Origin: Chromatiales bacterium (ex Bugula neritina AB1)
GTDB lineage: Bacteria > Pseudomonadota > Gammaproteobacteria > Granulosicoccales > Granulosicoccaceae
NCBI GenBank assembly: GCA_001730015.1
Contig: MDLA01000103.1
Coordinates: 124,001-188,000 of the forward strand
DNA length: 64,000 nt
Direction: 5' to 3'
Positions 16,738 to 46,706 of this stretch are shown piece by piece. The position numbers and the translations under genes are program-made. Numbering within the stretch: position 1 is the first letter of the stretch; the number at the start of each line of letters is the position of its first letter. The notes beneath the pieces are model-generated. The model saw only the letters and a program-made list of their open reading frames with translations. It was not told the DNA's origin and did not search any database.

Positions 16738-17652
16738 GTGGATAGCTATCAGCAGTTTGCTGAACCATTTGACGAGCCGATTGCGTATCGCAAACGAGTT
16801 CGCGATTATTATCTGGCACTGGGTTACCCCACACCCTATCGATGGGCGCATTACAGTAGTGTGCCCTTTGCTCCATTGCAGAAACGTCTGAATGAGTGCT
16901 CGATCGCAATCGTAACGACTGCTGCACCTTATAAGTCTGATGCAGGTGACCAGGGGCCGGGTGCGAATTATAACGGTGCTGCCAAGTTTTATTCGGTATA
17001 TCAAATGGAAAGCTCTGGCTCGCCGGATTTACGTATTTCGCATATTGCGTACGATCGTAAGCATACTGAAGCGACGGATTGCAACAGCTGGTTTCCATTG
17101 CGACAGCTGCATGCTATGGCAGACAGAGGTGAAATTGGTCAGGTTGCCCCGCGTTTTTTTGGTCTGCCGACCAATCGCAGTCATCGCACTACTCTGGAGG
17201 TCGATTGCGTCGAATTGCTTAAGCAGGTGCAGCAGGACTCAGTTGACGCCTGTGTACTAGTGCCGAATTGCCCGGTGTGCCATCAATCTGTTAGTCTGGC
17301 AGCGCGGTTTCTGGAGTGTGCCGGAATTTCGACGGTAGTGATGGGCTGTGCGCGTGACATTGTTGAATTTGTCGGAGTGCCTCGTTTGCTGTTCAGTGAT
17401 TTTCCGCTGGGGAATGCGGCGGGTAAGCCTCACGATATAGAATCGCAAAAGCAGACTCTGCAATTGGCTCTGCAACTGCTGGTTCAGGCACCGGCGGCGC
17501 GAACTACTGTGCAATCGCCTCAGCGTTGGAGTGATGACCCAGACTGGAAACTGGATTTTTACAATCTGGAGCGAATACCAGAGTCGGAGTTAATACGCTT
17601 GCGCCAGCAATTTGATGAACAGAAGCGAGCAGCGCGAGGGGTAACAGGTTGA
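16738..17652 (+). CDS. Glycine/sarcosine/betaine reductase B (GrdB)-like protein
   Basis: A 304-residue protein that I recognise as the proteobacterial branch of the GrdB/PrdB reductase family. Visible are ITTAAPYK-type SIAIVTTAAPY, DQGPGANYNGAAKFYSVY, LRISHIAYDRKHTEATD, and VLVPNCPVCHQS with the pair C178/C181. In clostridial enzymes the related subunit is a selenoprotein that reductively deaminates glycine, sarcosine or betaine. Here no TGA interrupts the frame, and whether this aerobic-type branch is a reductase is unproven. The start is GTG with AAGG seven bases upstream. It ends the hyu/liv cluster, 38 bases after livM-like. Cytoplasmic; no signal peptide. Confidence 0.7.
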   Translation: MDSYQQFAEPFDEPIAYRKRVRDYYLALGYPTPYRWAHYSSVPFAPLQKRLNECSIAIVTTAAPYKSDAGDQGPGANYNGAAKFYSVYQMESSGSPDLRISHIAYDRKHTEATDCNSWFPLRQLHAMADRGEIGQVAPRFFGLPTNRSHRTTLEVDCVELLKQVQQDSVDACVLVPNCPVCHQSVSLAARFLECAGISTVVMGCARDIVEFVGVPRLLFSDFPLGNAAGKPHDIESQKQTLQLALQLLVQAPAARTTVQSPQRWSDDPDWKLDFYNLERIPESELIRLRQQFDEQKRAARGVTG

Positions 17653-41073: not shown

Positions 41074-41096
41074 AACGGGCACCGTGTGTGCCCGTT
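41074..41096 (-). terminator. Hairpin after the thioredoxin-like gene
   Basis: A perfect 9-bp stem (41074-41082 with 41088-41096) with a five-base loop between the convergent GFA and thioredoxin-like genes. Read on the minus strand it is followed by a T-rich stretch (TTGTTT), so it mainly ends the minus-strand transcript. Confidence 0.65.
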
Positions 41097-41125: not shown

Positions 41126-41524
41126 TTATAGTGCCGCTTTTAGAATTGGCTCAATAGCAGTAACTGTCGTTTGTGCAATTACTCGTGCTACTTCTTTTCC
41201 ATCCTTGAATGTAACCAGTGTTGAGCGCCTGGGTATGTTCAAGTCAGCGACAATTAAATCACCTTTGAAAGTGTCCCAGTCAACTTTAAACCAGGTTATA
41301 GCTTCGTAATCGGCATTGCTGTCTATTAGTGCACTCACGGTGCGCTCTTGAGTTCGACAGGTGCCTCACCACGGGGCGTAAAAATCGAGCAAAAATGGCT
41401 TACCACTCTCGAGGGCCTGCTCGTAGGCCTCCTGAGTAAATTCCACTTGCTTCGCACCATCGGCGTGTACTGCACCGGTGACTAGCGCGATAGCTGGAAT
41501 AGCCAGGAACTGGCGTCTTTTCAT
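41126..41524 (-). CDS. Thioredoxin-fold protein with in-frame TGA at the active-site Cys (candidate selenoprotein)
   Basis: The start at 41524 has a strong AGGAGG ribosome site (complement of 41535-41540) and begins with a twin-arginine-like signal, MKRRQFLAIPAIALVTGAVH, cut near HA/DG. The mature domain is a thioredoxin fold, with LLDFYAPW at its active site. The next codon, 53, is TGA (41366-41368), then GTC-RTQE. Homologues of this motif read APWCGTCR, so the TGA replaces the first Cys of CxxC, giving UxxC. After the TGA the frame is intact to a normal end (cis-Pro region NIPRRSTLVTFKDGKEVARV), 132 residues in all. A small hairpin with GU in its loop lies 23-35 bases after the TGA. Selenocysteine is the best reading; a one-base nonsense mutation is the alternative. 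It follows the ferredoxin reductase gene by 105 bases. Confidence 0.75.
41331..41343 (-). promoter_or_regulatory. Possible SECIS hairpin inside the thioredoxin-like gene
   Basis: On the minus strand, GCAC-CGTGA-GTGC forms a hairpin whose loop contains GU and begins 27 bases after the TGA. Two further pairs (AG with CT) extend it past a single C/A mismatch. Bacterial SECIS elements are short stem-loops at about this distance with a G or GU in the loop. The stem is short, so the assignment is tentative. Confidence 0.35.
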
Positions 41525-41629
41525 CGGGAGAATGCCTCCTGCTATGTGAGTTGAGATTGAACGCTACCTCTGCCTGAGACAACTGTTAAAGGTAAAGGTT
41601 CCGGGATTATACAACCTATCGCATGATGC

Positions 41630-42439
41630 TTATCCTACAAATGCCTTTTCCATCACGAAACTGCCGGGTCGACTATTTGAACCTTCAACTAAACCGGCTT
41701 TTTCGCACAGGGCTTTCAAGTCTCTGTTCAGTCCCAGTGAACCGCAAATCATGACCCGGTCGACATCGGGTTTCAGTGCGGGAACGTTCAGATCGGTGAA
41801 AATCTGGCCACTTTCGATTAAGTGGGTAATACGTCCGCGCGGAGTGAAATTCTCCTGTGTGATAGAAGGGTAGTATCTGACTTTACCGGCAGCGTCGTCG
41901 CCGACCAGCGGGTCCTCCGGCAGATTTCTGATCAGATCCTGGCTGTACCCGAGTTCTTCGATTTGTCTGCAGGTATGAGTGAGGATAATTTCATCGAATC
42001 GGCCGTACAGCTCCGGGTCGCGAATGAGCGAGGCAAACGGTGCGACACCAGTGCCGGTCGCGATCATGTACAGTCGTTTACCGGGCAGTAATGCATCCAG
42101 AACCAGGCTGCCGACGGGTTTTGTTTGAACAATAATCCGGTCGCCCACCTTGATGTGTTTCAATTTTGAAGTTAGCGGACCGTTTTTCACTTTGATCGAA
42201 TAAAACTCGAGCTCCTCGTCCCACGAAGGGCTGGCGATTGAATAGGCGCGCTGCAACGGTTTGGTATCGTCGTTGGCGGGCAAACCGATCATGGTGAATT
42301 CTCCGGACCTGAAGCGCAGATTGTCCGGGCGGGTTACGCGAAACGAGAACAATCGATCATTCCAGTGCTTAATGGCAGTGACCGTTTGCGTATCAGGTGC
42401 TTTTGGAGCAGTAGCTTTGTTACTGGTAGTGTTGTTCAT
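41630..42439 (-). CDS. fpr: Ferredoxin--NADP reductase
   Basis: Flavoenzyme exchanging electrons between NADPH and ferredoxin or flavodoxin. FAD-binding RAYSIASP, the phosphate/NADP loop TGTGVAPFASLIRD, ILTHTCRQIEELGY, the CGSLGLNRDLK region and the family C-terminus MEKAFVG are all present. 269 residues; the first ten or so are a low-complexity extension. Subclass I bacterial Fpr, cytoplasmic. It is divergent from larA and lies upstream of the candidate selenoprotein on the same strand. Confidence 0.9.
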   Translation of the reverse strand: MNNTTSNKATAPKAPDTQTVTAIKHWNDRLFSFRVTRPDNLRFRSGEFTMIGLPANDDTKPLQRAYSIASPSWDEELEFYSIKVKNGPLTSKLKHIKVGDRIIVQTKPVGSLVLDALLPGKRLYMIATGTGVAPFASLIRDPELYGRFDEIILTHTCRQIEELGYSQDLIRNLPEDPLVGDDAAGKVRYYPSITQENFTPRGRITHLIESGQIFTDLNVPALKPDVDRVMICGSLGLNRDLKALCEKAGLVEGSNSRPGSFVMEKAFVG

Positions 42440-42702: not shown

Positions 42703-43992
42703 ATGAAAATTGATCTGGCGTTTGGTCATAACGGGTTGACAGTCGATCTCCCTCCCGCCGCAAAAGCGACAGTAATAAGAAAGCCCGAGCAGGTGATTAA
42801 CGCTGAAGCACAACAGATTATAAATGACGCACTCGCCAATCCGATTGGCTGTAAAACTCTGCCCGAGGTCGCCCATGGGCTGAAAACGGCTTGCATCCTG
42901 ATTTGCGATATCACACGCCCCGTCCCGAATCGGCTGTTTTTGCGCCCTTTGATTGAGCAGCTGACTAGTGCCGGTATGCTGCTCGACGGTATCACTGTGC
43001 TGGTGGCAACCGGACTGCACAGGCCAAACCTCGACGATGAACTGGCAGAGCTCATCGGTGACCCCTGGGTTGCCGAGCATGTGCGTGTCGAGAATCATTA
43101 TGCACGTGATGAAGCGGGCTGTGTTCATCTTGGTACCACGAAAAAGCACTCGGTGCCTGTCGGTCTGAATCGCTTGCTGGTCGATGCTGATATAAAAATT
43201 GCGACTGGTCTGGTAGAGCCTCATTTTATGGCCGGCTATTCCGGCGGTCGAAAAGTAATTGCCCCGGGAGTTGCTCATCACCAGACCATACGCACTTTTC
43301 ACAGCGCGCGCTTTATGGAAAGCCCTTACGCTACATCGTGCAACCTCGACGAAAATCCTCTGCATGAAACACAGCTGGAAATTATAGAAATGCTGGATGG
43401 GCCGGTATTGGGTCTCAATACCGTGCTTGATGAACACCGCAATCTGGTGTTTACCTCTTTCGGTGAGATAGTCGCCAGTCATATGAAGGCAGTCAGCTTT
43501 GCACGTGACAGCTGCGAAGTAACTGTAGAGCGGAAATACAAAACGCTGTTATCGTCATCGGCTGGTTATCCGCTGGATAAAACGTACTATCAAACCGTAA
43601 AAGGGATGGTAACGCCGTTGGATATTCTGGACAAAGGCGGTGATCTGATCATCGTCTCCGAGTGCTCGGAAGGCTTTGGTTCAGAGGAATTCTGTGAGGC
43701 GCAAAAGCGGCTGGTCTCGTTAGGTCCGGAGGCGTTTCTGCAAACGCTGCTGGCAAAGTCTTTGGCGGAAGTAGACGAATGGCAGACGGAAATGCAGTTA
43801 AAGCCGATGCGGGTTGGACGGATAAAACTCTATGCGCCGAATTTGGGTAATGATGCCGCTGCCATCACCGGTGTTGAAATGATCGACGATATCACAGCAG
43901 CTATATCGGAAAGCCTTAGCCGCCACCGGGACAATGAAATAGCTGTTATTCCAGAGGGCCCATACGTTGTACCCTTTGTGGCTGTCAGCTGA
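42703..43992 (+). CDS. larA: Lactate racemase-type nickel enzyme LarA
   Basis: Racemase or epimerase of 2-hydroxyacids that uses the nickel-pincer nucleotide cofactor. All four key residues of the Lactobacillus enzyme are present in the expected places: H106 (ATGLHRP), H174 (EPHF), K184 (GGRK, which anchors the cofactor) and H200 (RTFHS). 429 residues. Cytoplasmic. The accessory genes larC, larE and larB follow in one overlapping run, so the cofactor can be made locally. Substrates in the family include lactate, malate and other hydroxyacids; which one applies here is unknown. Confidence 0.9.
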   Translation: MKIDLAFGHNGLTVDLPPAAKATVIRKPEQVINAEAQQIINDALANPIGCKTLPEVAHGLKTACILICDITRPVPNRLFLRPLIEQLTSAGMLLDGITVLVATGLHRPNLDDELAELIGDPWVAEHVRVENHYARDEAGCVHLGTTKKHSVPVGLNRLLVDADIKIATGLVEPHFMAGYSGGRKVIAPGVAHHQTIRTFHSARFMESPYATSCNLDENPLHETQLEIIEMLDGPVLGLNTVLDEHRNLVFTSFGEIVASHMKAVSFARDSCEVTVERKYKTLLSSSAGYPLDKTYYQTVKGMVTPLDILDKGGDLIIVSECSEGFGSEEFCEAQKRLVSLGPEAFLQTLLAKSLAEVDEWQTEMQLKPMRVGRIKLYAPNLGNDAAAITGVEMIDDITAAISESLSRHRDNEIAVIPEGPYVVPFVAVS

Positions 43993-44001
43993 GTATTGTT
44001 T

Positions 44002-45210
44002 ATGTCCAGGGTACAGCCGGCTCGCATTGATCTGAACCCGCTTGGCGGTATCGCCGGCGACATGTTTGCCGCTGCTTTGTTTGATGCTTTTCCCGATCAA
44101 TTTGCACACTTTCAAAATGATCTTGAACAACTCGGTATTGATGGCCTTGGTGCCGAGCGGCAGGTCAGGCAGTCAAAAGGTATGCGTGCCGGGTACTTCA
44201 GGGTAATTCAGAATACCGGGCTGGAGCCACCGCGTACCCTGAGCGAGGTCGAAAATTTTCTACGCTCAAAAGCACTTGACTCAGAAGTTTTAGGGACAGC
44301 CAGCGGAATTTATAGATTACTGGCGCAGGCGGAAGCGGCAGTGCATGGCAAAACGCTACACACAATACATTTTCACGAGGTATCTGACTGGGACTCCATG
44401 GTCGATATACTGGCTGCCGCCGGAATAATAGCGCGCCTCGGCTGTTGCCATTGGCGTATAGGGCCGTTGCCGCTGGGTGGTGGCACCGTTAATACAGAAC
44501 ACGGAGCTATTATGATGCCGGCTCCGGCAACAACAGAGTTATTGCACGGCTACCAATGGATCGACGACGGTATTGCAGGTGAGCGGGTTACACCAACCGG
44601 TGCCGCTATTGTCGCCTACCTTAAGCCGTTACCACTGCAAACCGGGGGGGCGCCAATGCAATTGCTTGTCAGTGGGACGGGCTGCGGCAGTCGTGAGCTC
44701 GCGGACAGGGCAAATATACTTCGCGCTACAGCCTATGGTCATCCCGATGGTGCATCGCGCACCTTACAACAGGATCAGGTTCTGCAACTGGCGTTTGAAA
44801 TTGATGATATGACCGGCGAAGAGCTTGCCAGTGCGATGGATCGCGTGCGGGCTCATTGCGCTGTGCTCGATGTTAGCAGCCTGACAATGGCGGGTAAAAA
44901 AAACCGCACAGCGACAGGAATCCGAGTGCTGGCACAGCCGGGTTCGCTGCATGAACTGATCGAATTATGTTTTGCTGAAACGAGCACGCTGGGGGTACGT
45001 TACACGCTGCTGGATCGCTATATAGTGCAAAGAAGCCAGCACGAAATTGATGGTCTAAGGGTAAAAGTCGCACAGCGACCGGACGGCACACTTACGGCAA
45101 AAATAGAAAGCGATCAGTTGTCAGAAAATTCGCTGGCGGCACGGCGCAGGCTTGCAATGGGCACAGAGGCGAAACTTCTGAAACAACAAGGCAGGCAGCG
45201 TGATGATTGA
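44002..45210 (+). CDS. larC: Nickel insertion protein LarC
   Basis: CTP-dependent cyclometallase that inserts nickel into the pincer cofactor (DUF111 family). N-terminal ARIDLNPLGGIAGDMFAAAL, HFHEVSDWDSMVDILAAA and GTVNTEHGAIMMPAPATTEL are hallmarks. C-terminal: LQLAFEIDDMTGEELASAMD. 402 residues as one continuous frame; in some lactobacilli the gene needs a programmed frameshift, which is not the case here. The ATG at 44002 is preferred to a TTG two codons earlier. It overlaps larE. Confidence 0.92.
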   Translation: MSRVQPARIDLNPLGGIAGDMFAAALFDAFPDQFAHFQNDLEQLGIDGLGAERQVRQSKGMRAGYFRVIQNTGLEPPRTLSEVENFLRSKALDSEVLGTASGIYRLLAQAEAAVHGKTLHTIHFHEVSDWDSMVDILAAAGIIARLGCCHWRIGPLPLGGGTVNTEHGAIMMPAPATTELLHGYQWIDDGIAGERVTPTGAAIVAYLKPLPLQTGGAPMQLLVSGTGCGSRELADRANILRATAYGHPDGASRTLQQDQVLQLAFEIDDMTGEELASAMDRVRAHCAVLDVSSLTMAGKKNRTATGIRVLAQPGSLHELIELCFAETSTLGVRYTLLDRYIVQRSQHEIDGLRVKVAQRPDGTLTAKIESDQLSENSLAARRRLAMGTEAKLLKQQGRQRDD

Positions 45211-46042
45211 GTCGGCTGCACAATCCGGATACACTAGGCTTTCTGAGCTGCTGGTAGCACGGCAGGGTGTTTTGCGAATTGCATTAAGCGGAGGTATAGA
45301 TAGTCTGACCCTGATGACACTGGCGGCAGAAATCAGAGCATGGCCGACAATAGCTATGCATGCCGTCTCACCGGCTGTTCCTGCAGAGGCAACAGAGCGG
45401 TGCAGGGAGCTGGCCTCGCGCTTCAATTGGTCGTTGGTTGAACTGAATGCCGATGAATTTTCCAATCCGCAGTATGTTAGTAATCCGGTCAATCGCTGTT
45501 ATTACTGCAAGTCGAGTCTGTTTGACCGCATTATAGAGGGCGTCACGGCCGGCTGTGACGATATTGGAACACTTGCCACGGGCACGAATGCCGACGATCT
45601 TGGTGATTACAGGCCTGGTTTGCAGGCAGCTAGCGAGCGCAATGTCTGGCAGCCTTATGTAGAAGCCAATATAAATAAGGCCGCCATTCGTTGCCTGGCC
45701 AGAGAGCTGAATCTGGGAGCACTTGCCGAGCTACCGGCACAGCCCTGCCTGTCCAGTCGCGTTGCAACCGGTATAGCCATAGATGCTCGTGACTTGCGAT
45801 TTATACATCAGGTTGAAAAGGCGGTAGCTGCCAGTACTGAGGCAGGAGATATACGTTGTCGAGTTACTGATACCGGAATAGTGGTGCAGCTACCCGCCGG
45901 CAGTTCGGGGCTTGTTGATAGTGACAAACGTGCTGATATTGCCATATTAGTTCAGAAAATGTGCGCGCAACATAATCGCCGGTTCAAGGGAATTGAGCCG
46001 TATCGTATGGGTAGTGCTTTTTTGCGAGACTGCAATGACTGA
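45203..46042 (+). CDS. larE: ATP-dependent sulfur transferase LarE
   Basis: Pyridinium biscarboxylate sulfurtransferase that adds the two thiocarboxylates of the nickel-pincer cofactor. PP-loop ALSGGIDSLTL (28-38) binds ATP. C182 (QPCLSSRVATG) matches the sulfur-donating Cys of the sacrificial Lactobacillus enzyme. C99 and C102 (NRCYYCKSSLF) add a CxxC, the three-Cys set seen in LarE enzymes that hold a 4Fe-4S cluster and act catalytically. 279 residues from the ATG; a GTG directly before it is possible. It overlaps larC by eight bases and larB by eight. Confidence 0.9.
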   Translation: MIESAAQSGYTRLSELLVARQGVLRIALSGGIDSLTLMTLAAEIRAWPTIAMHAVSPAVPAEATERCRELASRFNWSLVELNADEFSNPQYVSNPVNRCYYCKSSLFDRIIEGVTAGCDDIGTLATGTNADDLGDYRPGLQAASERNVWQPYVEANINKAAIRCLARELNLGALAELPAQPCLSSRVATGIAIDARDLRFIHQVEKAVAASTEAGDIRCRVTDTGIVVQLPAGSSGLVDSDKRADIAILVQKMCAQHNRRFKGIEPYRMGSAFLRDCND

Positions 46043-46706
46043 TGTAGAGTTTGACTGGCAGCGGGAATCCAGAACGGGCATAGGTGAGGCTGTTCTGTGC
46101 CAGGGCAAGAGTGTTGAACAATTGAAATCTATATTATCTGTAGCGCAAGACAGATCAGCCTCACTGCTATTGACCAGAATAAAACCCGATGCCGCAGAGC
46201 AGTTAATTGCACTCGGCCACAGCAATCTTTGCTGGCATCGAACCTCTTCTACTGCGGTGTTGGATAACGGACTACCCGAATTGGTCGACTCGCCCTGTCT
46301 GATCGTAACAGCTGGTACGTCGGATATGCCGGTCGCTGAAGAGGCAAGCGTCACCTTAAGGTATTACGGTCTGAAAGTGGAAATCCTGGCCGATTGCGGT
46401 GTGGCCGGTTTGTGGCGAATCACAGACAAACTGGAAAAGTTGCGGCGGGCACCGGTGATAATCGCTATTGCCGGTATGGAAGGCGCCTTGTTTTCTGTGC
46501 TCGCTGGACTGGTGCCGGGTCTGATTATCGCGGTGCCGGCGTCTACGGGTTACGGGGTAGGAGAATACGGAAAAGCCGCGCTGAGCAGTGCGTTAACGAC
46601 TTGTGCGCCTGGAGTCGTCACAGTGAACATAGACAACGGGTTCGGTGCAGCCTGTGCGATGCTGAAGCTGTTGCGGCATAGTCACTACGCACACAATCAA
46701 CAGTAA
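46035..46706 (+). CDS. larB: NaAD carboxylase/hydrolase LarB
   Basis: First enzyme of the nickel-pincer pathway: it carboxylates nicotinic acid adenine dinucleotide and cleaves off AMP. The C-terminal PurE-like domain is evident: VTAGTSDMPVAEEASVTLRY, ADCGVAGLWR, VIIAIAGMEGALFSVLAGLV, VPASTGYGVGE and VNIDNGFGAACAMLKLL. 223 residues from MTDVEFDW at 46035, which overlaps the larE stop; the longer in-frame extension is spurious. Last gene of the lar operon. Confidence 0.92.
   Translation: MTDVEFDWQRESRTGIGEAVLCQGKSVEQLKSILSVAQDRSASLLLTRIKPDAAEQLIALGHSNLCWHRTSSTAVLDNGLPELVDSPCLIVTAGTSDMPVAEEASVTLRYYGLKVEILADCGVAGLWRITDKLEKLRRAPVIIAIAGMEGALFSVLAGLVPGLIIAVPASTGYGVGEYGKAALSSALTTCAPGVVTVNIDNGFGAACAMLKLLRHSHYAHNQQ

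Follow-up and report, generated by a model that had tools for sequence, protein, structure and literature searches.

Selenoproteins with a thioredoxin fold and selenocysteine (Sec) as the first residue of a UxxC motif have been described before. UxxC thioredoxins (PF00085) stand among the experimentally verified selenoproteins in Table 1 of PMC13188914, and Table 2 of PMC2398784 gives 321 GOS sequences for the marine 'Trx-like 1' selenoproteins. The same table gives 235 GOS sequences for PrdB selenoproteins, and the PrdB-like kind is established in PMC13188914 too. A CcdA orthologue that reduces a periplasmic thioredoxin is known from SoxV/SoxW (Appia-Ayme and Berks, 2002, from its title in PMC10451225).

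The gene analyzed here comes from an uncultured bacterium and lies in a 64,000-nt stretch of DNA, called the window below. As in the UxxC and Trx-like 1 proteins, Sec would be the first residue of UxxC on a thioredoxin fold, but the subfamily of the window gene carries a signal of twin-arginine-like type, lacks the cis-proline and is accompanied by a CcdA-type partner gene. It resembles SoxV/SoxW in its pairing with CcdA, and differs in the putative Sec in the active site of part of the family. The CcdA-type protein matches the middle part of DsbD (PRK00293, NF001419; 42.2 bits) and the thioredoxin weakly matches the DsbD C-terminal part (23.3 bits); however, two separate genes are present here and the scores are far under the 330-bit family cut-off. 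Matches to TsoB (NF045694), a rhodanese/DsbD fusion-like selenoprotein, are likewise weak for the thioredoxin (29.3 bits, cut-off 805) and for the CcdA-type proteins (22.1 bits; 36.1 for the own copy), and the window system again differs in consisting of two separate genes. The closest solved fold is an Edwardsiella thioredoxin-like protein (5zf2, 5zpv; 35% identity over 102 columns for 5zf2), which also has Ser for the cis-proline but is a Cys form, and whose reported role in infection has no bearing on the window gene. Judged by these features, this is probably a new Sec/Cys subfamily, CcdA-linked and predicted to be exported. Our literature search found no paper tying a selenoprotein and a thioredoxin to Granulosicoccus, or selenocysteine to Granulosicoccaceae. 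Since UxxC thioredoxins and PrdB-like selenoproteins are already known, the surprise is moderate.

The features of the locus are given below. Homologues with TGA at codon 53 are called Sec forms and those with TGT or TGC Cys forms.

41630..42439, minus strand: ferredoxin-NADP reductase-like gene, upstream neighbour, 105 bases away on the same strand; functional link doubtful
41535..41540, minus strand: Shine-Dalgarno AGGAGG ahead of the ATG, read from the sequence
41126..41524, minus strand: putative Sec-containing, probably exported thioredoxin CDS, 132 residues, stop TAA, Pfam PF00085 match
41462..41524, minus strand: N-terminal signal, RRxFL, twin-arginine-like, VHA at its end; RRx-hydrophobic-hydrophobic in 41/41 homologues
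41366..41368, minus strand: UGA codon 53, candidate selenocysteine, first of U-G-T-C; TGA in 25 and TGT/TGC in 16 of 41 full-length homologues
41357..41359, minus strand: Cys56, second active-site residue; Cys in 25/25 Sec and 16/16 Cys forms
41328..41346, minus strand: candidate SECIS-type hairpin, apical loop CGUGA at 41335-41339, 26 nt past the UGA
41222..41224, minus strand: Ser101, at the thioredoxin cis-proline position; column placed by alignment with 2yj7
41074..41096, minus strand: terminator-like hairpin 3' of the gene, 9 pairs, fits the consensus in both directions

The minus-strand frame from 41524 to 41126 is uninterrupted but for the TGA at codon 53, and translates as MKRRQFLAIPAIALVTGAVHADGAKQ...DFYAPW-TGA-GTCRTQERTVSAL..., ending at TAA. 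A sequence-only reading had described this frame as a candidate selenoprotein gene; its coordinates and the place of the TGA were correct, as were the strong Shine-Dalgarno sequence, the terminator-like hairpin and the intactness of both halves (no lesion besides the TGA in the own copy). It had also expected automatic annotation to cut the gene, and plain ORF calling does so: only the 70-residue 3' part appears in the ORF list. Ordinary annotation truncates such a gene at the 'stop'.

With the TGA read as a residue, the frame scored 50.2 bits against Pfam PF00085 (Thioredoxin; cut-off 23.5). The score on the TrxA equivalog TIGR01068 was 47.6 bits, under its cut-off of 96.8, and no NCBIfam family matched the thioredoxin at its own cut-off. 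An AlphaFold model with Cys at position 53, built with 16 sequences, showed the thioredoxin fold with confidence (mean pLDDT 86.4), and in it U53-GT-C56 opens a long helix (54-69). What had been taken for a cis-Pro region has no proline: the residue there is Ser101, and among the 41 full-length homologues the column holds S in 39, G or A in two, and P in none. The cis-proline of thioredoxins keeps metal off the active-site thiolates. Its replacement by Ser makes metal binding by this thioredoxin a possibility.

To collect homologues, 48 genomes of the order were searched with stops read through, together with named genome contigs, and codon 53 was extracted. Forty-two distinct places were found, 41 of them full-length genes; the other (L138), a fragment with an in-frame TAG, was left out of the 41-gene counts and the tree, and its genome G023 was counted as thioredoxin-less. 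Codon 53 is TGA in 25 full-length homologues, TGT in 11 and TGC in 5, so that relatives do alternate between TGA and Cys codons. The order accounts for 23 of the TGA genes, spread over 17 of its 48 searched genomes; the other two are on named chromosomes (L063, L064). In a wider search of 369 genomes of the class, an even sample of a larger group, six had a match at E≤1e-20, and TGA was found only in that of the own genome. The gene L022 from the window's genus (G014) is identical to L051 from a Granulosicoccaceae record. A tandem pair of Sec thioredoxin genes, each with TGA and hairpin, was seen at L031:1501-2509 (G012:C44).

If the TGA were a nonsense mutation or a sequencing error, the gene would be a pseudogene. 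This would account for a single in-frame stop and nothing more; the identical TGA recurs in 25 distinct genes, the most divergent sharing 42% identity with the window gene, in independent assemblies including those of other species. The own gene and its nearest relative differ by 46 synonymous and 24 non-synonymous codons; at the base level, 25 of the 156 positions preceding the TGA differ and 64 of the ~237 following it. We give the pseudogene explanation virtually no chance. The above-chance signal at the TGA is confirmed as conservation, as judged from the homologous codons. On a tree built with the hairpin columns removed, the Sec label changes four times, yet a single Sec clade was not rejected (p-AU 0.235), and separate origins of the Sec forms were not retained as a conclusion.

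The 7.44-Mb assembly of the own genome (207 contigs, 98.61% complete, 5.14% estimated contamination) contains all four sel genes that the sequence-only reading proposed to look for: tRNA-Sec (selC; 74.5 bits, anticodon tca), selA (584 bits), selB (297.8 bits; 380.2 with the neighbour piece) and selD (239.4 bits). The selD match (G000:C158:34950-35873, L183) is within a 764-residue open frame, which makes a fusion of SelD with a further domain probable. Contamination of 5.14% could in principle have brought machinery and gene together from different organisms, but the relatives repeat the combination. Taking Sec machinery as selA or tRNA-Sec at ≥60 bits, 16 of the 48 order genomes have both the machinery and a TGA thioredoxin, one has the thioredoxin alone (G003), three have the machinery alone (G016, G022, G041) and 28 have neither (Fisher p 7e-9, uncorrected for kinship). 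The 60-bit cut-off for tRNA-Sec is our own, set in the gap between 49.5 and 63.3 bits; at Rfam's own cut-off 20 of the 48 genomes are counted, doubtful matches among them. Neither tRNA-Sec nor selA was detected in G003 (listed completeness 84%), and selA was not detected in G011 (TGA thioredoxin, listed completeness 94%). In G041, where the thioredoxin is a Cys form, the machinery is accompanied by a reductase-like gene with TGA (see below). A Sec-containing formate dehydrogenase was considered as the reason for the machinery and set aside: no in-frame stop was seen in any TIGR01591 match listed for the 48 genomes. By the same matches, the subfamily sits in a family of bacteria whose formate dehydrogenase shows no sign of being a selenoprotein.

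The residue inserted at UGA cannot be read from the open frame alone, and the codon might be translated by another route, either through general reassignment or through another tRNA reading it as Trp or Cys. TGA terminates 15 of the 40 non-overlapping ORFs of ≥200 codons in the window and also serves as the final stop in six of the 25 Sec thioredoxin genes; UGA is therefore not generally reassigned. In addition, tRNA-Sec and selA track the TGA trait, and the conserved loop described below is missing from the Cys forms. We consider translation by another route very improbable. The selenoprotein reading is supported by the comparative data, and we put the probability that UGA53 is a selenocysteine codon at about 0.95.

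The bSECIS shape given in PMC13188914 has a G in the first two loop positions, a spacing of 16-37 nt, a loop of 3-9 nt and a stem of 4-16 bp. The hairpin in the window gene agrees with this shape (CGUGA loop, 26-nt spacing); base 23 after the TGA is where its 4-bp core begins, with two further pairs beyond a C-A mismatch. The small GU-loop hairpin first noticed at this place is present, and it is conserved in the Sec forms, but its folding energy is unremarkable. The 45-nt segment folds at -7.7 kcal/mol (z +0.41; ~20% of synonymous shuffles fold equally well) and a 24-nt segment at -6.1 kcal/mol (z -1.68). The 45-nt value includes a separate small helix; the hairpin by itself has -6.1 kcal/mol, against a bSECIS limit of -7.5. 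We did not use the hairpin energy of this gene as evidence. Covariation was also set aside as weak: only one of the seven pairs is altered on both sides, and one pair is mismatched in 15 of 23 distinct rows including the window.

The conservation of the hairpin bases is more telling. The loop position reads CGTGA in 19 and CGTGC in 6 of the 25 Sec genes, and neither is found in the 16 Cys genes. Over codons 60-65, pairs of Sec forms with the same residue use the same codon in 1328 of 1531 cases (0.867), compared with 164 of 413 (0.397) for the Cys forms. Elsewhere in the Sec genes synonymous sharing is 0.615 (codons 57-59), 0.532 (66-69), 0.442 (25-52) and 0.372 (70-131), and a 6-codon scan across the gene has its maximum at codons 59-64 (0.90). 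ACC (codon 62) and GTG (codon 63) are unchanged in all 25 Sec forms, as are the residues Arg61, Thr62, Val63, Ala65 and Leu66; the Cys forms differ at 62-65. In 27-nt windows the hairpin is the predicted fold in 25/25 Sec genes; in 45-nt windows three of the 25 (L131, L039, L134) give another fold.

Searching the 48 genomes with a covariance model of the hairpin gave 23 matches at E<1e-8, and each of them was one of the TGA thioredoxins used to build the model. These matches are true by construction and show just the lack of other strong places: with stricter filters, the next best in the 48 genomes had E 0.005, and the next in the own genome E 0.208. A weak match (22.3 bits, E 0.025) was seen at L038:1687-1737 (G041:C54), in a Cys-form thioredoxin of a genome with Sec machinery, and may be left over from a Sec codon since lost.

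The same loop occurs in a second gene of the own genome. A gene resembling proline/glycine reductase B (TIGR04483, 83.5 bits, cut-off 300) is located between selB and selA on the plus strand (L181:4169-5335, G000:C200). It has an in-frame TGA in a UPNC motif and, from its sequence, is a probable second selenoprotein. Its hairpin is strong (z -3.83), with a CGUGA loop 17 nt after the UGA. Across the order, 22 of 39 reductase B-like matches have one TGA and come from the same 17 genomes as selA; the other 17 are weaker and have no stop. At 17 nt after the UGA, 18 of the 22 TGA genes have CGTGA and four have CGTGT; in every gene except L236 and L238, which adopt another fold, these bases are predicted to form the apical loop (20 genes). 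The loop was present in 0 of the 8 Cys-form genes looked at (of the 17). The CGUG loop lies in the same reading frame in the thioredoxin and the reductase B-like gene, which are unrelated to each other, and so gives independent support for the signal; this suggests that SelB of this lineage may read CGUG. The shared loop also offers a way to ask how a coding-region RNA signal constrains the protein.

A paralogue of the L181 gene (G000:C197:4683-5837, L238; 36% identical) has TGA in UPFC and CGUGU at the loop place, and is by its sequence a probable third selenoprotein. Another reductase B-like gene lies in the window itself (16882-17583, plus strand; G000:C103:140882-141583), without an in-frame stop and 33% identical to the selA-side protein.

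The sequence-only reading had proposed a redox unit with the ferredoxin-NADP reductase. In this explanation the selenoprotein would be partnered with the gene immediately upstream on the same strand, and such a neighbour was found in 11 of 33 loci. These are mostly loci that also share GFA-domain and lar-type neighbours, so the arrangement may be synteny, and the RRx-hydrophobic signal of all homologues points outside the cytoplasm. No ferredoxin-NADP reductase gene was found in loci where a CcdA-type gene adjoins the thioredoxin. We regard the reductase as an unlikely partner.

A CcdA-type gene was present in 30 of the 32 order genomes with a full-length thioredoxin (not matched in G009 and G017) and in none of the 16 without. 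In the Cys-form order genomes it adjoins the thioredoxin in 14 of 15; the two are on separate contigs in G031. Of 44 loci, 19 have a CcdA/DsbD_TM gene and the thioredoxin within one retrieved stretch, and Sec forms account for five of these (L063, L064, L135, L140, L141); some of the 44 loci repeat a single place, two had been retrieved only for their CcdA gene, and short contigs are among them as well. The own CcdA-type gene (C80:25639-26346) is on a contig apart from the thioredoxin, and its product is 64% identical to P0002, which scored 51.2 bits on DsbD_TM. Since the reductase occurs in 11/33 loci and is absent beside CcdA-adjoining thioredoxins, a CcdA/DsbD-type membrane protein is the more likely partner on genomic context. 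The own CcdA-type gene adjoins a class GN sortase (203.5 bits) and a marine proteobacterial sortase target (684 bits) at L199:5134-8711 (G000:C80).

With CcdA as the preferred partner, we infer the following scheme. SelB and tRNA-Sec would decode UGA53, steered by the CGUG-loop hairpin 26 nt downstream, to give a small exported thioredoxin-fold reductase with the active site Sec-Gly-Thr-Cys. The conserved RRx-hydrophobic-hydrophobic signal suggests twin-arginine export, most likely to the periplasm, where the protein would reduce oxidised cysteines or peroxides. Sec53 would attack the oxidised substrate first and Cys56 would resolve the product; a CcdA/DsbD-type membrane electron carrier, whose gene lies at another place in the own genome, would return electrons and keep the thioredoxin reduced. 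We lean towards this periplasmic, CcdA-fed role. A broader proposal is more tentative, and we hold it at somewhat below even odds: that Granulosicoccaceae possess a dedicated selenium-based periplasmic reducing line from CcdA to a Tat-exported Sec thioredoxin lacking cis-proline, and that their SelB reads a lineage-wide CGUG loop of unrelated genes, fixing Thr-Val-Ser/Arg behind the active site.

These data add a Sec/Cys thioredoxin subfamily with clear bounds and a predicted electron donor that can be tested; its close Sec/Cys pairs provide a way to ask what Sec gains an exported thioredoxin. Elsewhere in the window, the plus strand carries a lactate-racemase-like gene (42703-43992; Lar_N, LarA_C), followed at 43996-46706 by ORFs that resemble the nickel-pincer cofactor genes larC/larE/larB.
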